NCBI GenBank assembly: GCA_003170475.1
Contig: PMZI01000007.1
Span: 1-53,841, forward strand
Direction of reading: 5' to 3'
Source of the DNA: Ignavibacteriota bacterium
GTDB lineage: Bacteria > Bacteroidota > Ignavibacteria > UBA10030
Length of the DNA stretch: 53,841 bases
Shown: one piece after another, positions 30,682 to 36,336 of the stretch
How positions within the stretch are numbered: position 1 is the first letter of the stretch
Layout: every line of letters starts with the position of its first letter
Program-made: the position numbers and the translations under genes
Notes under the pieces: generated by a model
What the model was told of the DNA's origin: nothing
Seen by the model: only the letters and a program-made list of their open reading frames with translations
The model's database searches: none

Positions 30682-32058
30682 TCATTTCTCGGCTTTGATG
30701 CCGTATTTCTTAATCTTCAGATAGAGTGTCTTTGGCGTAATGCCAAGCATCTGTGCAGTCTTAATTCGGTTCCATTGATTGTGCTTCAGCGCTACTTCAA
30801 TGTGGCGTCTTTCAATTTCCTCCAGTGACAGTATCCCCAATTGTTCGATTGGAGATGTATCCGAAACCGGAGAAGCCATTTGACCGGAGAGAGAGGGATT
30901 TATCCAGAGGTCTCGTGCCTCAATCGTCTCATCACGACTCAGAACGGTTGCTCCTTCAATGACGTGCTCAAGTTCACGCACATTTCCAGGCCAATCGTAG
31001 CGTTCAAGTATGACCATTGCCTCCGCACTGACCGTCTTTGGTTTGGATTTGGACTTTCGCTTGAGGAAGTGATCCACCAAGGAAGGGATATCTTCCTTTC
31101 TTTCCTTGAGCGATGGCAACTTGATACTCACAACGTTTAGTCGGTACAGAAGATCTTCCCTGAATCGGCCGGCGTGAACCTCCGCCGGCAAATCCTTGTT
31201 CGACGCCGATACCACCCTGACATCAACCTTCATCGAATTGGTGCCACCGACACGTCGGAACTCCCCCGTTTCCAGGAACCTCAGGAGTTTGGCTTGTGTC
31301 GGCTGACTGATGTCACCGACTTCGTCGAGGAAAAGGGTACCACCATCGGCAACCTCTACGAGCCCCTGCTTGGCAGCGTAGGCATTGGTGAACGCTCCCT
31401 TCTCGTGCCCAAAGAGTTCGGTCTCAAGAAGCTGGTCGGGAATTGAAGCGCAATTGACTGCGACGAAAGGTTGGTCGCGACGCGGACTTTCGTTGTGCAG
31501 AAGGTGGGCGATCAATTCTTTCCCGGTTCCGCTTGCGCCCTGGATCAGAACAAAAGCCTCACTGTTTGCAACTTTGCGGGCATTCTCCACGGCGTTTCGG
31601 AACACTGCACTCGCTCCCACGAGGTCGCTGGCGCCGCTGATCCGATTCAATTCCCGTTTCATCACTTCTTTGTCGATCACGAGCTGGCGACGCTCCGTGG
31701 CTCGGCGAACCGTTGCGATCAGCTGCTGAGAATCGTAGGGTTTGCTGACGAAATCGTAGGCGCCAAGTTTAATGGTCTCAATCGCCGTCTTGAAATCAAC
31801 GACGTTTGTCAGCATGATGACTTGGGTGGTCGGCGAGTGTTCGTTGATGTGCTTCAGGACATCCATGCCACTGACCCGCGGCATTTTGATATCGAGGAGT
31901 ACAACATCGTAGATTGCGGTTTGGATCAGATTGATGGCTTCTGTCCCGTTGAGGGCGACATCAACATCAAATTCGGAGACTTCTTCGAGTTCGGTCTTGA
32001 GGAGAAACGTGATGGACTCTTCGTCATCGACAACCAAAATCCGGTACTTCTTCGCCAT
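30682..32058 (-). CDS. NtrC-like response regulator with altered GAFTGA loop
   Basis: A 458-residue regulator: receiver with Asp56 (VVLLDIKMPRVSG), AAA+ domain with Walker A QGASGTGKE and Walker B GGTLFLDEVGD, and a C-terminal helix-turn-helix (WNRIKTAQMLGITPKTLYLKI). The loop that contacts sigma-54, normally GAFTGA, reads GAFTNA (residues 221-226). A glycine-to-asparagine change here usually harms sigma-54 activation in studied activators, so this protein may work differently or need a partner change. It follows the single-domain receiver by 24 bases, same strand, and the two receivers are clearly similar (both contain DFVSKPYD). No histidine kinase gene is nearby. Confidence 0.88.
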   Translation of the reverse strand: MAKKYRILVVDDEESITFLLKTELEEVSEFDVDVALNGTEAINLIQTAIYDVVLLDIKMPRVSGMDVLKHINEHSPTTQVIMLTNVVDFKTAIETIKLGAYDFVSKPYDSQQLIATVRRATERRQLVIDKEVMKRELNRISGASDLVGASAVFRNAVENARKVANSEAFVLIQGASGTGKELIAHLLHNESPRRDQPFVAVNCASIPDQLLETELFGHEKGAFTNAYAAKQGLVEVADGGTLFLDEVGDISQPTQAKLLRFLETGEFRRVGGTNSMKVDVRVVSASNKDLPAEVHAGRFREDLLYRLNVVSIKLPSLKERKEDIPSLVDHFLKRKSKSKPKTVSAEAMVILERYDWPGNVRELEHVIEGATVLSRDETIEARDLWINPSLSGQMASPVSDTSPIEQLGILSLEEIERRHIEVALKHNQWNRIKTAQMLGITPKTLYLKIKKYGIKAEK

Positions 32059-32082
32059 TGCATTTTCCCCTGATTGGCGAGG

Positions 32083-32454
32083 CTAGAGTCCACTGAGGAC
32101 GCGTTCAACGGTGGTAAGCAGGTCTACAAGGTCATATGGTTTGCTGACAAAATCCTCCGCTCCAAGTTTCTTTGATTCTATGGCATTCTTCAAGTCTGCA
32201 AACCCTGTGAGCATGATGACTTTCGATGTCGGGTGGTTTTCCTTGACGAATTTCAAAACTTCGAAACCATCGACCTTTGGCATCTTGATATCGAGGAGGA
32301 TCAGATCGAAGTACTGAGTACGGAGGATGTTGATGGCTTCATCCCCGTCTCCAGCAGAGGACACTCTGTATCCTTCCCCTTCCAATTCCGCGCTCAAGAC
32401 GGTTCTGAGCGCATCTTCGTCGTCTACGACTAAAATTCTATTTTTCTCTGCCAT
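32083..32454 (-). CDS. Single-domain response regulator (CheY-like receiver)
   Basis: A stand-alone receiver of 123 residues from the ATG at 32454, which has AAGGAG seven bases upstream. The acidic pocket (VVDDED), the phospho-acceptor Asp55 in LILLDIKMPKVDG, the switch threonine (VIMLTGF) and the lysine in DFVSKPYD are all present, so it should be phosphorylated. It has no output domain; it could relay phosphate or act by protein contact. Its sequence is close to the receiver of the NtrC-like regulator downstream, suggesting duplication. Confidence 0.9.
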   Translation of the reverse strand: MAEKNRILVVDDEDALRTVLSAELEGEGYRVSSAGDGDEAINILRTQYFDLILLDIKMPKVDGFEVLKFVKENHPTSKVIMLTGFADLKNAIESKKLGAEDFVSKPYDLVDLLTTVERVLSGL

Positions 32455-32626
32455 ACGAATTCTCCTTGGGAGATCCACGGATTATTGGCCATCACGCACC
32501 CCCACTATCCGCCTGAGTCGCCGCAACATAGAGAATTTCCCATAGAAAAGCAACCCGGCGAATCCTCCACGGGCCTGTGCCGCCTGTCTCGGAATCGTTC
32601 CTGACACACCGTCTCATCTGAATTCA

Positions 32627-32655
32627 TTGCAAGTCAACGAAACATCTTGTACCTT
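32627..32655 (+). promoter_or_regulatory. Possible promoter for the receiver-DHp gene
   Basis: TTGCAA (32627-32632) and TACCTT (32650-32655) are 17 bases apart. The -10 is poor (three of six). If used, the transcript would start at or next to the ATG at 32665, giving a nearly leaderless message; the gene has only a weak GAG as ribosome site, which is compatible. Confidence 0.35.
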
Positions 32656-32664
32656 GAGTGCAGA

Positions 32665-33360
32665 ATGAGCACGCCATTACCGGAAAAACCCCACAAAGCC
32701 ATCACCGTTCTTCTGGTGGACGATGACATTGGCTTCGCACAGATCGTCCAGCAACAGTTGAAACAATTCCAGAGCCGGGAATTCAAACTCATCTGGAAGG
32801 AAACGGTCGAAGAAGCACTCGTCGAAATCCAATCGAACTCCACGATCGACCTCATCCTCACCGACTATGTCTTCCCCGGCTCTAACGGACTCGAATTTTG
32901 CCTCCAGCTCAATCAGGCGAATTCCGAGGTCCCTATCGTCTTTGTGACGGCAACACGGGACTTCAAACTTGCTATTGAGGCCATGAAGCTTGGCGTCGAG
33001 GATTTCCTTATCAAGGAAGACCTCGCGGAGTCCCTTCTTCCGCGCACGATTCTCAATGTGCTCGACCGCGTGCGCATGCACAAGCAGATCAAAGCGGTTG
33101 AAAAGAGGATGCTTATCGCTGAAAAACGTGCCGAGGCGATCCGTGAGCTTGTGGTGACTGTCTGCCACGAATTCAACAACCCCCTCGCTGCAATCAAAAT
33201 CAGCGCAGACCTCATTCGCCGTCAGACATTGCACGAGGAAGACAAGAACCTCCTGAGGCAGTTTGAAGACAACTTTCAAAAGATTGAATCAGAAGTGAAG
33301 CGACTGCGCGATATCAGTTTTGAGCGGATCGACTTCCACGACTCGCCCAAAAATCCCTGA
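32665..33360 (+). CDS. Receiver-histidine-kinase DHp protein without ATPase domain
   Basis: A 231-residue signalling protein. Residues 14-130 are a receiver with Asp67 (LILTDYVFPGSNG); a helical linker (about 133-163) leads to a HisKA-type segment VVTVCHEFNNPLAAIKISADL with the phospho-accepting His168, and the second DHp helix runs to about 218. The protein then stops: there is no HATPase domain with N, G1 or G2 boxes. It cannot autophosphorylate by itself and could serve as a phosphotransfer or dimer partner for another kinase. It is divergent from the CheY-like gene. The reading frame downstream does not continue into kinase sequence, so this is not a simple frameshift. Confidence 0.82.
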   Translation: MSTPLPEKPHKAITVLLVDDDIGFAQIVQQQLKQFQSREFKLIWKETVEEALVEIQSNSTIDLILTDYVFPGSNGLEFCLQLNQANSEVPIVFVTATRDFKLAIEAMKLGVEDFLIKEDLAESLLPRTILNVLDRVRMHKQIKAVEKRMLIAEKRAEAIRELVVTVCHEFNNPLAAIKISADLIRRQTLHEEDKNLLRQFEDNFQKIESEVKRLRDISFERIDFHDSPKNP

Positions 33361-33430
33361 CCACCGCACCATTCCGAGCATTCCAACGCTTTGCACTTTG
33401 TTTTTTGTGCGTCGTTCCACGTTTCTCCCC

Positions 33431-33459
33431 TTGCAACTGAGCGAGTTTCTTGCTATACT
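33431..33459 (+). promoter_or_regulatory. Strong sigma-70-type promoter ahead of an intergenic transcript
   Basis: TTGCAA (33431-33436) and TATACT (33454-33459) are separated by exactly 17 bases, the best promoter match in the window. The predicted start is near 33466. It precedes a terminator at 33578-33612 and the Nif3-like gene at 33631. Confidence 0.65.
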
Positions 33460-33465
33460 TCATTG

Positions 33466-33612
33466 TCAAAGCAACGATGTATGGTTCCTCAGAGTTCAGT
33501 CCATTGGCGATGTCAAATCGGATAAGGCCCAAACAGCTCGATTTCAAGTTTCCCAGGAAAACATCAAAGAAATCCGCAAAGTGTCCCGCTCAAAAAGCGG
33601 GACACTTTTTTT
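33466..33612 (+). ncRNA. Predicted small RNA or attenuated 5' leader of about 147 nt
   Basis: The stretch between a strong promoter and a near-ideal intrinsic terminator encodes no convincing protein: the only open frame (49 codons from 33477) has no ribosome site and reads through the terminator stem. The transcript would be about 147 nt. It does not resemble 4.5S, 6S, tmRNA or a riboswitch I know. Because the terminator ends 18 bases before the Nif3-like start codon, the same unit may be a leader that controls read-through into the nif3-zinc-ribbon-RNase HI genes. Confidence 0.45.
33578..33612 (+). terminator. Strong intrinsic terminator
   Basis: AAAGTGTCCCGCT (33578-33590), a five-base loop and AGCGGGACACTTT (33596-33608) form a perfect 13-bp stem, with a seven-T tract from 33606. 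The T-run on the plus strand sets the direction. It lies 18 bases upstream of the Nif3-like ATG and 217 bases after the receiver-DHp stop. Confidence 0.85.
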
Positions 33613-33630
33613 GTTCAAAGGCATAGATCG

Positions 33631-34737
33631 ATGAATTTGGCCAACATTGAAAAGTTGTTCGAGACATGGGCACCGCGATGGACAGCGTGGGAGCGCGACA
33701 ATGTCGGAATCCAGATCGGCCGCAGATCCAAACGGGTTTCGAATATTCTCGTGGCCCTCGATGTCACTCCCGAAATCGTCAGGGAGGCTATCGCAACCAA
33801 AGCCGACCTGATTGTGACACATCATCCTTTGTTGTTCCGACCCGCTTCGTCAGTTTCTGATGCAGATCCCGTGGGTGCGCTGGTCTTGATGCTTGCTGAA
33901 AAGAGAATAGCGCTTTTCTCTGCCCATACGAATCTTGACTCCGCAGTAGGTGGAGTCAGTTTCACACTTGCCGGCGAACTTGGGATTGACAAGCCGGCAT
34001 TTCTTGTGCCGCTCAAAGATACTCTGATGAAAGTTGCAGTCTTCGTTCCCGAGCAGCATGCAGACGTCGTGGCAACGGCAATGGCGGAGGGCGGTGCCGG
34101 AGTATTGGGAGAGTACCGATCGTGCTCGTTTCGCACCACGGGCAAGGGAACGTTTCGGAGCTCAGAGTACTCATCACCGACGATCGGCAAACCTCTTCAG
34201 CTTGAAACAGTGGATGAGGTCCGCCTCGAAATGATCGTACCTCGCTCTTGTGTTACCGCGGTCGTCGCCGCGATGAAATCCGCTCATCCGTACGAAGAAG
34301 TCGCCTACGACCTCTATACGCTCGAGAACGGGAATCCCAATTTCGGCATGGGGGCTATCGGAAATCTTTCGAAGCCGATGACGGTTCGAGCGTTTCTGGC
34401 ACATGTGAAGAAGAAATTGCACGTCGGCTCACTCAGGTTTTCAGGTTCACCAGCTCAGACGGTACAGCGCATTGCGGTGTGTGGTGGCAGCGGATCTGAG
34501 CTGCTCGAAGACGCCATCCGCGCGAAGGCGGATGTTTTTGTTACCGCGGACGTTCGCTATCACGGGTTTCAGTCAGCGGACAATCGGATTATTCTCGTCG
34601 ACGCGGGCCATTATGAAACCGAACATGTTGTTTTGAATTCCATCGTTGGTCATCTTCGCTCTTGGGCGAAATCCCGGGGCGAGAATCTTGTTGTCACCAA
34701 ATCGAAGCAATCAACCAATCCAATTCATGTTTTCTAG
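33631..34737 (+). CDS. Nif3/YbgI-family dinuclear-metal protein
   Basis: A 368-residue member of the Nif3-like family, sometimes annotated as GTP cyclohydrolase I type 2; the true substrate is unsettled. Metal-binding motifs are TWAPRWTAWERDNVGIQIG, LIVTHHPLLFRP and FSAHTNLDSA in the first half and VDAGHYETEHV at the end. The centre (about residues 135-235) is the extra PII/CutA-like domain found in longer members (VAVFVPEQHADVVATAM, VTAVVAAMKSAHPYEEVAYDLY). AAAGG lies nine bases before the ATG, directly after the terminator at 33578-33612, so expression may depend on read-through. It leads a run with the zinc-ribbon protein and RNase HI. Confidence 0.9.
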   Translation: MNLANIEKLFETWAPRWTAWERDNVGIQIGRRSKRVSNILVALDVTPEIVREAIATKADLIVTHHPLLFRPASSVSDADPVGALVLMLAEKRIALFSAHTNLDSAVGGVSFTLAGELGIDKPAFLVPLKDTLMKVAVFVPEQHADVVATAMAEGGAGVLGEYRSCSFRTTGKGTFRSSEYSSPTIGKPLQLETVDEVRLEMIVPRSCVTAVVAAMKSAHPYEEVAYDLYTLENGNPNFGMGAIGNLSKPMTVRAFLAHVKKKLHVGSLRFSGSPAQTVQRIAVCGGSGSELLEDAIRAKADVFVTADVRYHGFQSADNRIILVDAGHYETEHVVLNSIVGHLRSWAKSRGENLVVTKSKQSTNPIHVF

Positions 34738-34755: not shown

Positions 34756-35487
34756 TTGGAAAACCGATTACGCTTGTTGTATGCCCTTCAACGAGTAGAC
34801 TCGAATCTCGATGAGCTCCACGAACTCAAAGGAGATCTCCCTCACCTCGTGGAGGTTCTGGAGAAGAAACTTCAGGAGAAAGACACTCTGCGGAAGTCGC
34901 TGGAAGCAACAGTGAAACATTCCCATGTCCGCCGGGATGAAATCGACCTGGAGATCATCACCACCAAGGAGAAAATCGAGAAGTACAAAGAGCAGCAATT
35001 CCAGATCAAGACGAACAAGCAATACGACTCACTGACGCGGGAAATCGACCTGTCACAGGAAAGAGTGAAGACTCTCGAAAAAGAGATGGAATCGATCGAG
35101 GGGAAAGGCGCGAATGCCAAAACAGATCTTGAGACGCTCGCGCCGGAACTTGAAGAACTGCGAAAAGAGTTGAAAGAGCGTCAGGCGGAGCTCGATCTCG
35201 TGAATAAAGAACACGAGGATGAAGAACTCAAACTCAAGCACGAACGCGAAAAACTCATCGTGAGAATCGACAAGAGCGATGTCAAGTCCTACGAGCGGAT
35301 TCGGAAAGCCCTCGGCGGTAAGGCGGTCGTGGGTGTACGACGAAACGCCTGCGGAGGGTGCTTTAAACGCGTGCCACCTCAAGTTTCCGTGGAACTTCGA
35401 AAGAATTCGCGGGTGATGATATGTGAGCACTGCGGCAGGCTCCTCGTGTCCGACGATATCGTTGAAAGCTACACGGAAGCGATATGA
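34756..35487 (+). CDS. Coiled-coil protein with C-terminal C4 zinc ribbon
   Basis: A 243-residue protein: a long antiparallel coiled coil (about 10-185, heptads rich in E, K, L) and a C-terminal zinc ribbon with two Cys pairs, CGGC and CEHC. Similar proteins are widespread next to nif3-like and RNase H genes; their role is not established, with nucleic-acid binding often proposed. The start is a TTG at 34756, supported by GAAGGAG six to seven bases upstream. The stop overlaps the RNase HI start by four bases (ATGA). Confidence 0.88.
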   Translation: MENRLRLLYALQRVDSNLDELHELKGDLPHLVEVLEKKLQEKDTLRKSLEATVKHSHVRRDEIDLEIITTKEKIEKYKEQQFQIKTNKQYDSLTREIDLSQERVKTLEKEMESIEGKGANAKTDLETLAPELEELRKELKERQAELDLVNKEHEDEELKLKHEREKLIVRIDKSDVKSYERIRKALGGKAVVGVRRNACGGCFKRVPPQVSVELRKNSRVMICEHCGRLLVSDDIVESYTEAI

Positions 35488-35900
35488 CGGTTCTTGCGTT
35501 TACTGATGGGGCTGCCCGTGGGAATCCGGGAGAAAGCGGGATCGGCGTCATCTTCAAAGATGAAAAGGGCACCATACTCACAAAGATATCCGGGTACATC
35601 GGAAAGGCCACGAATAACGTTGCGGAATACCAGGCGCTGATTGTATGCCTCAAGAATGCCCCCGGAACAATGTGTTCCCGACTCGTCGTTCACTCTGACA
35701 GCGAATTGATGGTGCGTCAACTCCTCGGGGAGTACAAAGTGAAGGATCCCACATTGAAATTGATGTTTCAGAAGGTACACCGACTTCTCGCCAAAGCTTC
35801 GTTCGAGTTCGAGATCAAGCACGTCGGCAGAGAGTTGAACAAGGAAGCAGACCAGCTCGCGAATCTGGGAATCGATTCGCGGAAGCCAATTCGAATTTGA
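35484..35900 (+). CDS. Ribonuclease HI-like protein
   Basis: Cleaves the RNA strand of RNA-DNA hybrids. The 138 residues are slightly shorter than E. coli RNase HI and lack its basic protrusion. The four metal-binding acidic residues are present: Asp8 in FTDGAARGNPG, Glu48 in NNVAEYQAL, Asp72 in HSDSEL and Asp123 in NKEADQLAN. It overlaps the zinc-ribbon gene by four bases and is followed 29 bases later by the RNase P RNA. This shorter, RnhA-like subclass is common in this gene context. Confidence 0.9.
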   Translation: MTVLAFTDGAARGNPGESGIGVIFKDEKGTILTKISGYIGKATNNVAEYQALIVCLKNAPGTMCSRLVVHSDSELMVRQLLGEYKVKDPTLKLMFQKVHRLLAKASFEFEIKHVGRELNKEADQLANLGIDSRKPIRI

Positions 35901-35927: not shown

Positions 35928-36336
35928 GAGCAGGTGTGGCCGGCCAGGCAGTCGCTCCATCTGATGTTTCGGATGGGGAGGAAAGTCCGAACACCACAGG
36001 GCAAGGCGCCTCAGGTCAACTGAGGGTCCTGCAGGCAAGAACCTGCAGGAACGGACAGTGTCACAGAAAACAGACATCTTCCGCATCGGTGGAAGAGAAA
36101 GGTGAAAAGGTGGTGTAAGAGACCACCGCTCCGGCAGTAATGACGGAGGCACGACAAACCCCGCCCGGTGCAAGACCAAGCATGTCACGCTTGAGGTGGC
36201 CCGTTTCATCCTGTACCTTGTGTGCAGGTGCGTGACGGGTAGGTCGCCTAGAGAAATGACTGCCTCGTTTCGTCTCAACTTCTGTTGGGGCGGAATTAGA
36301 CAGAATTCGGCTTATCGGCCGGCCACTCCCTGCCTT
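35928..36336 (+). ncRNA. rnpB: RNase P RNA
   Basis: Catalytic RNA that matures tRNA 5' ends. Diagnostic conserved segments are GAGGAAAGTCCGAACACCAC (CR I, near 35976), the pairing TCAACTGAGG and CCTGCAGGCAAGAACCTGCAGG stem region, GGTAGGTCGCCTAGAG with the following AATGACTGCC, and ACAGAATTCGGCTTATCGGCC at the 3' side (CR V, near 36300). The ends close a long P1 helix: GCAGGTGTGGCCGGCC near 35930 pairs with GGCCGGCCACTCCCTGC near 36318. A TTTT follows. About 409 nt, standard ancestral type A size. End points are approximate. Confidence 0.93.

Follow-up and report, generated by a model that had tools for sequence, protein, structure and literature searches.

A putative promoter, a short leader ORF and a candidate attenuator in front of the nif3-zinc ribbon-rnhA-rnpB gene run of an Ignavibacteriota bacterium

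In attenuators of the trp/his/leu type, a promoter is followed by a leader ORF, a terminator and the structural genes. The pyrBI attenuator of Escherichia coli depends on UTP-sensitive pausing of the polymerase, and the E. coli ampC attenuator is growth-rate dependent, a ribosome on its very short leader being thought to block the terminator. The pyrBI leader ORF reaches into the terminator, and the genes that it controls serve pyrimidine synthesis. Passages of PMC4824070 describe the folding of the pyrBI hairpin as set by the distance between ribosome and polymerase; in measurements in E. coli described there, repression was almost complete for a terminator a few bp behind a stop codon, whereas translation cost a terminator 30 bp downstream of a start codon only about 10% of its efficiency, the reason given being that the first ribosome rarely catches the polymerase within the first 100 bp. 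Masking of terminators by ribosomes is also treated in part of PMC5021804, and part of PMC7366714 mentions short ORFs reminiscent of leader peptides in 5' UTRs of Bacteroides.

We analysed a window, i.e. the whole stretch of 53,841 nucleotides of an Ignavibacteriota draft genome from which the lines above are taken, with regard to positions 33431-33612, directly upstream of a nif3 gene. As judged by comparison with relatives, these positions are rather probably the promoter, translated leader and attenuator of a gene run consisting of nif3, a zinc-ribbon gene, rnhA and rnpB. The order of elements is that of the trp/his/leu-type attenuators, but the nif3 leader differs from these in lacking an antiterminator pairing, in preceding genes other than those of amino-acid synthesis, and in that no regulatory codon run of the trp/his/leu kind is present in the leader peptide of the window. 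With pyrBI it shares a leader ORF that reaches into the terminator and, as we would expect, a hairpin whose folding depends on the distance between ribosome and polymerase, while the controlled genes are different. The ampC attenuator resembles it in a terminator that would be blocked by a ribosome on the leader and again differs in the genes.

The unit starts on the forward strand with a putative promoter, whose -35 element TTGCAA (33431-33436) is separated by 17 nt from a -10 element TATACT (33454-33459) with TG ahead of it; from the latter, transcription is predicted to start near 33466. It continues on the same strand with a short leader ORF of 38 codons at 33510-33626 (MSNRIRPKQLDFKFPRKTSKKSAKCPAQKAGHFFCSKA and a stop codon) and a predicted intrinsic terminator at 33578-33612, consisting of a 13-pair stem with a 5-nt loop (33578-33608) and a T7 tract ending at 33612. 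The genes of the run, all on the forward strand, are nif3, coding for a DUF34 protein of 368 aa (33631-34737; PF01784), a C4 zinc-ribbon gene with a TTG start (34756-35487; PF02591), whose CT398-like coiled-coil match PF24481 lies just below the cut-off (26.8 bits vs 27), an RNase HI-like gene, rnhA (35484-35900; PF13456 and PF00075), whose start overlaps the stop of the zinc-ribbon gene, and the RNase P RNA gene rnpB (35936-36330; RF00010, 239.8 bits), the only copy found in the 4.08 Mb draft genome. The TTGCAA-17-TATACT site, the 13-pair stem with seven T and the gap of 18 bases to the ATG at 33631 had all been pointed out in an initial annotation, and each was found again at these positions. 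The same annotation had called the terminator the best one in the window, which agrees with our listing, where no other hairpin combines a stem of this length with a T7 tail (hairpin and promoter listings jointly span the whole window). On the minus strand, 53418-53388 form another hairpin of 13 pairs, which contains G-T pairs and has a poor T tail. The gene 5' of the promoter (32647-33360), on the same strand as nif3, codes for a response regulator/histidine kinase with receiver and HisKA domains; it belongs to a group of response-regulator type neighbours at 30682-33360, the other two of which, at 30682-32058 and 32083-32478 on the minus strand, were assigned from their translations only.

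The conservation of the terminator was assessed with a 280-nt query (33361-33640) in 32 genomes of the same family, 25 of which gave a match. For 18 of these 25, no part of the query ahead of position 205 is matched, which leaves essentially the terminator alone; the match reaches further upstream in seven, namely the genome of the window, five others of its genus and one more (G024). The initial annotation had held that a lack of conservation beyond the stem would speak against its proposal. Conservation of sequence is indeed lacking outside the genus, but the promoter and the ORF do recur there as features. A nif3 match was found in 31 of the 32 genomes (all but G023) and a locus was available for 30 (G001 has the match without a locus). 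In 29 of these 30 loci, GTGTCCCG or ATGTCCCG stands 34-90 nt before the nif3 start, and in the thirtieth (L033) there are N bases where the stem motif is expected. A second collection contributed 80 more loci (the best 80 of 502) and raised the total to 110, of which 105 are distinct and still include near-duplicates (e.g. L047/L061, L055/L070, L056/L071, L085/L094 and L107/L135). With a rule asking for a hairpin within 110 nt of nif3 and, in the 8 bases that follow the stem, for 5 T or more, a hairpin with T-tract was found 4-62 nt upstream of nif3 in 100 of these 105 loci, in most of them no more than 30 nt from the start codon. The five exceptions are L033, L053 with the same stem and no T-tract, L080, in which that stem stands 152 nt upstream, and the two loci L125 and L136, recorded as Rhodothermales. 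By a fixed rule (score 10), the hairpin is present at 75 of 99 nif3 starts vs 0 of the 321 starts of other ORFs, chance ORFs among them, that these loci contain, and stricter limits gave 73 and 64 of the 99, still with 0 of 321. A genome-wide repeat family was also considered for the hairpin and rejected, as this is the only copy in the genome with up to 3 mismatches allowed. These comparisons argue that the predicted terminator before nif3 is real and old in the relatives.

The stem itself shows the marks of conserved pairing. For the analysis of covariation, we took 33 of 81 listed hairpins, those 25 nt long, in order to avoid gaps; 29 of them are distinct and 94.6% of the cells are paired. 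Counting sequences and not independent events, the covariation score was 0.590 vs 0.225 in shuffles, none of 500 shuffles being as high, and reached at most 0.163 when the partner was slid; seven of nine pairs change on both sides vs 5.3 in shuffles, a number reached by 16 of the 500. A short motif, which by itself makes part of the positions invariant, served to place 97 of 100 hairpins in register, the other 3 not fitting. In these 97, the stem positions GNNC read GCAC in 51 and GTCC in 46, always paired (33581-33605 in the window), while the two positions next to them show four and six standard pair types. The limitation of four stem positions to two states is, as far as the alignment tells, more than a plain terminator or pairing alone needs. 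An operator-like palindrome in place of the terminator, which the conserved arms had brought to mind, was dropped owing to the T-tract; as an extra role of the hairpin, it may still apply.

The promoter had been described as the best in the window, which we could not confirm: its score of 9 of 12 is shared by all the other sites listed, and the counts of these sites differ from those in shuffles by less than 2 sd (16 vs 10.4 (sd 3.0), 8 vs 11.0, 9 vs 7.9 and 4 vs 3.4). What supports the candidate promoter at 33431-33459 is comparison with relatives alone, and not the consensus score. With a single sigma-70-type pattern, TTG-N16-19-TAnnnT, and single-base shuffles as null, a site 55-190 nt before the stem was present in all of 97 loci, that of the window among them, vs 26% of shuffles, with a spacing of 17 in 93 of the 97. 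The -10 ends cluster 140-80 nt before the base of the stem, where three bins hold 21, 29 and 54 of 97 vs 3.4, 5.1 and 7.7 expected; the next bin towards the stem holds 9 of 98 (5.5 expected). The bins between -60 and +40 nt, counted from the base of the stem, all contain 0 promoter-like sites, and the 20 nt beyond +40 contain one in 100 loci. Judged by this pattern, nif3 thus shows no promoter of its own after the hairpin, which bears out the earlier statement that no other promoter for this gene is evident.

In contrast to the initial annotation, which saw no convincing ORF between promoter and terminator, the 38-codon ORF at 33510-33626 is supported by the relatives; its 38 aa are below the 60-aa limit of the ORF list. 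It crosses the terminator and stops 4 nt before the ATG of nif3. Starting at another in-frame ATG, at 33477, the peptide would have 49 aa; 33510 is preferred because the ORFs of four loci of the same genus (L028-L031) begin there. The search took the longest ORF with an ATG start, a minimum of 16 codons and an end no more than 20 nt short of the stem, a rule which picks an unlikely ORF in some loci (e.g. L130 and L175); it gave a leader ORF in 89 of 98 loci vs 36.6% of dinucleotide shuffles. The stop codon lies within -20 to +3 nt of the stem in 62 of the 98 vs 5.5% of shuffles and beyond +3 in 27 of the 89, i.e. a tight spacing of stop codon and hairpin is not universal and is absent in the window. 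Lowering the limit to at least 10 codons gave an ORF in 91 of 100 loci, and two of the nine loci without one (L048 and L074) are cut at a contig end. The leader ATG sits 58-104 nt before the stem in 87 of the 89. In 38 of 90 loci, it follows the -10 element by 12-15 nt, which would leave a 5' leader of about 6-9 nt and a nearly leaderless mRNA if transcription starts at the usual distance; the 5' leader of the window, from 33466 to 33510, would be about 44 nt long.

The leader ORF also carries a coding signal. In 18 pairs of loci, hand-picked after the substitution counts had been viewed and including two that align poorly (L128/L130 and L102/L115), the substitutions favour the frame of the ORF, with a score of 1136 vs 885 (sd 43; z 5.9; 0 of 2000 simulations), and 7 of the 18 pairs are below 0.05 on their own. 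Codons with amino-acid changes exceed silent ones in 13 of 19 pairs, and constraint on the sequence of the leader peptide appears weak. Its composition is basic: in 64 peptides whose stop codon lies no more than 3 nt into the stem, lysine makes up 18.3% and arginine 8.9% of residues vs 9.3% and 3.5% in the Nif3 proteins of the same loci, which is a 2.0-fold and a 2.6-fold enrichment dispersed over the positions listed, and D, E and G are depleted. In the genus of the window and some neighbours, the peptide starts roughly with MSxRIRxKQLxxKFP. Three leader peptides gave no match in Pfam at E values up to 1.

Behind nif3, a relative of the zinc-ribbon gene follows in 98 of the 102 loci with room for it, and a relative of rnhA in 45 of the 102, some of which perhaps lack room. 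In 40 loci chosen by hand from L057-L136, rnpB was found on the same strand after nif3 in 28 (16 of 20 and 12 of 20), besides the window, and was not found downstream in 12. Of 17 loci, 5 have a promoter-like site in the 120 nt ahead of rnpB and 12, the window included, have none. In these 12, rnpB may be co-transcribed with nif3, while the 5 loci with a site of its own and the 12 of 40 without rnpB speak against an attenuator that serves this gene. Related neighbourhoods have been reported: part of PMC3372290 describes NIF3 genes adjoining DUF164 genes, with RNase H neighbours, and an RNase P RNA downstream of a DUF164 gene in Borrelia burgdorferi, and mentions no leader or attenuator.

The distribution of the unit was followed further in 198 genomes drawn over the phylum, from which loci were taken for the best matches. 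The 25 loci examined comprise 9 that the set already contained and 16 new ones. Terminator and promoter are each present in all 13 new loci inside the class, and 12 of these 13 have an ORF with 10 codons or more; the three new loci outside the class have no terminator. L185, on a short contig and with a match not at the expected place, and the class families f8, f9, f11, f12, f13, f15 and f16, in which nif3 matched weakly, were left out. By eye, a short ORF and a hairpin were seen in one more family of the class (f10, locus L212) and no comparable unit in eleven other families with 1-3 loci each (f19, f21, f24, f26, f29, f31, f33, f36, f38, f40 and f41). In four genomes of another family (L213-L216), a tRNA-Leu(CAG) gene is followed by a hairpin with T-tract, assigned by eye, and nif3, with RNase P RNA downstream, and L194, L195, L197 and L203 also hold upstream parts of this arrangement. 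In two genomes of a further family (L217 and L218), a hairpin was seen by eye directly 5' of nif3, again with RNase P RNA downstream. The hairpin before nif3 and rnpB is therefore more widespread than the leader ORF, which is one of at least two possible predecessors.

Several other explanations have to be weighed against an attenuator. The first alternative of the initial annotation was a free regulatory small RNA, here of about 147 nt, as a promoter-like site and a strong terminator 147 nt apart would suggest, and the whole RNA from promoter to terminator does fold better than shuffles (z -3.23). The folding energy comes, however, from the terminator: the leader of the window without it folds no better than shuffles (z +0.90), and the 95 nt before the stem have a mean fold z of +0.09 over 98 loci, 2 of which are below -2. 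Neither at gathering nor at permissive thresholds does any family of Rfam 15 reach its gathering score in this segment, the hairpin region alone is what matches in 18 of the 25 family genomes, and the recurring feature of the segment is a short ORF. A structured small RNA or riboswitch was consequently dropped, as no structure beyond that of shuffles precedes the terminator, and we regard a free small RNA in general as improbable. An even smaller chance is given to the hairpin acting on translation or stability of the nif3 mRNA, e.g. as a protective 5' hairpin after processing, instead of as a terminator. Its closeness to the nif3 start in most loci and the four stem positions confined to two states would be in line with such an element, but a protective hairpin has no need of the T-tract that is present in 100 of the 105 loci; L053, with the stem and no T-tract, was likewise entered against this explanation. 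Least credible of all is that the terminator belongs to the upstream response regulator/histidine kinase gene and merely insulates nif3. That gene is on the same strand, but a promoter-like site recurs between it and the terminator, and no such site was seen around the hairpin or directly behind it.

More serious, if still rather unlikely, is a fixed partial terminator, in which case the leader would be an independent gene for a small basic protein and the nif3 run would live on constant, unregulated read-through. A stop codon followed by a terminator is what an ordinary gene end looks like, the ORF and its basic composition persist, and in four members of the phylum tRNA-Leu takes the place of the ORF before the hairpin and nif3. 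On the other hand, the leader peptide changes rapidly in sequence for a protein with a function, the three peptides searched have no Pfam match, and the ORF crosses the hairpin in some loci, that of the window included, so that a terminated transcript would have no stop codon. The arrangement with tRNA-Leu bears on the attenuator as well: read-through may not need translation there, and the claim that translation of the leader is essential is weakened by it.

An attenuator remains the reading that we favour, in agreement with the second alternative of the initial annotation, i.e. control of the nif3 run by read-through; it is backed by the hairpin in 100 of 105 loci, the lack of a promoter near it and the presence of rnpB behind nif3 in 28 of 40 loci. 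The layout of promoter, ORF, terminator and genes is supported by comparison among relatives, and from a promoter, an ORF and a terminator followed by genes with no other visible promoter we infer control by read-through. Polymerase would start near 33466, transcribe the ORF for the basic peptide and meet the terminator 18 nt before nif3, so that nif3, and probably part of the rnpB supply, would be made only upon read-through. An antiterminator was searched for and not seen in the leaders, the exact complementary runs having a mean of 2.53 for the 5' arm (2.97 in shuffles) and of 3.07 for the 3' arm (2.92 in shuffles); the simplest switch would therefore be a ribosome that masks an arm of the hairpin. 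Close behind the polymerase, it would cover the 5' arm and raise read-through, in most relatives while standing at the stop codon just before the stem and in the window while translating through it. With slow or absent translation of the leader, the hairpin would form and the transcript would end after about 147 nt, and such a terminated RNA may thus still be made. The signal might be general translation activity or growth rate, which is a guess. What occlusion by a ribosome should leave behind in a sequence is seen here, namely an ORF that runs to or into the hairpin, a terminator without a later promoter and no antiterminator. Since nearly all leader ATGs sit 58-104 nt before the stem and in E. 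coli the first ribosome rarely catches up over such a distance, the model needs a pause of the polymerase, which is hypothetical here, or else the race would be won only by fast initiation of translation.

A wider reading, to which we give a rather low probability and which is therefore offered tentatively, is that rnpB, nif3 and the zinc-ribbon gene form part of a translation sensor beyond one class, in which read-through of the terminator is set by the RNA just upstream. This RNA would be the basic leader ORF with a ribosome on it in Ignavibacteria-like members and the tRNA-Leu gene in another family, and the supply of the tRNA-processing ribozyme would follow the activity of the translation machinery.

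The principle of such an attenuator is known. In the open-licence literature, as covered by titles and the openings of abstracts, we found neither a leader nor an attenuator described upstream of nif3 or rnpB and no paper with 'RNase P RNA' together with 'Nif3', and a word search in the main text of a review on DUF34 (PMC8469502) gave no 'leader', 'terminator' or 'RNase P'; this is weak evidence that an attenuator before the nif3 run has not been described. If the proposal is true, an attenuator without a match in Rfam would be widely conserved before genes that often include rnpB, in bacteria whose regulation has had little experimental work, and production of a core tRNA-processing ribozyme would be tied to translation of a leader. 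It would also hint at the conditions that call for the Nif3/zinc-ribbon pair, which is poorly understood, and the tightness of the coupling between ribosome and polymerase could be tested on a natural case in bacteria other than E. coli. As a minor observation, transcripts terminated within the ORF would, in the window and other loci where the ORF crosses the terminator, end without a stop codon, unlike those of most relatives, and could be substrates of ribosome rescue.
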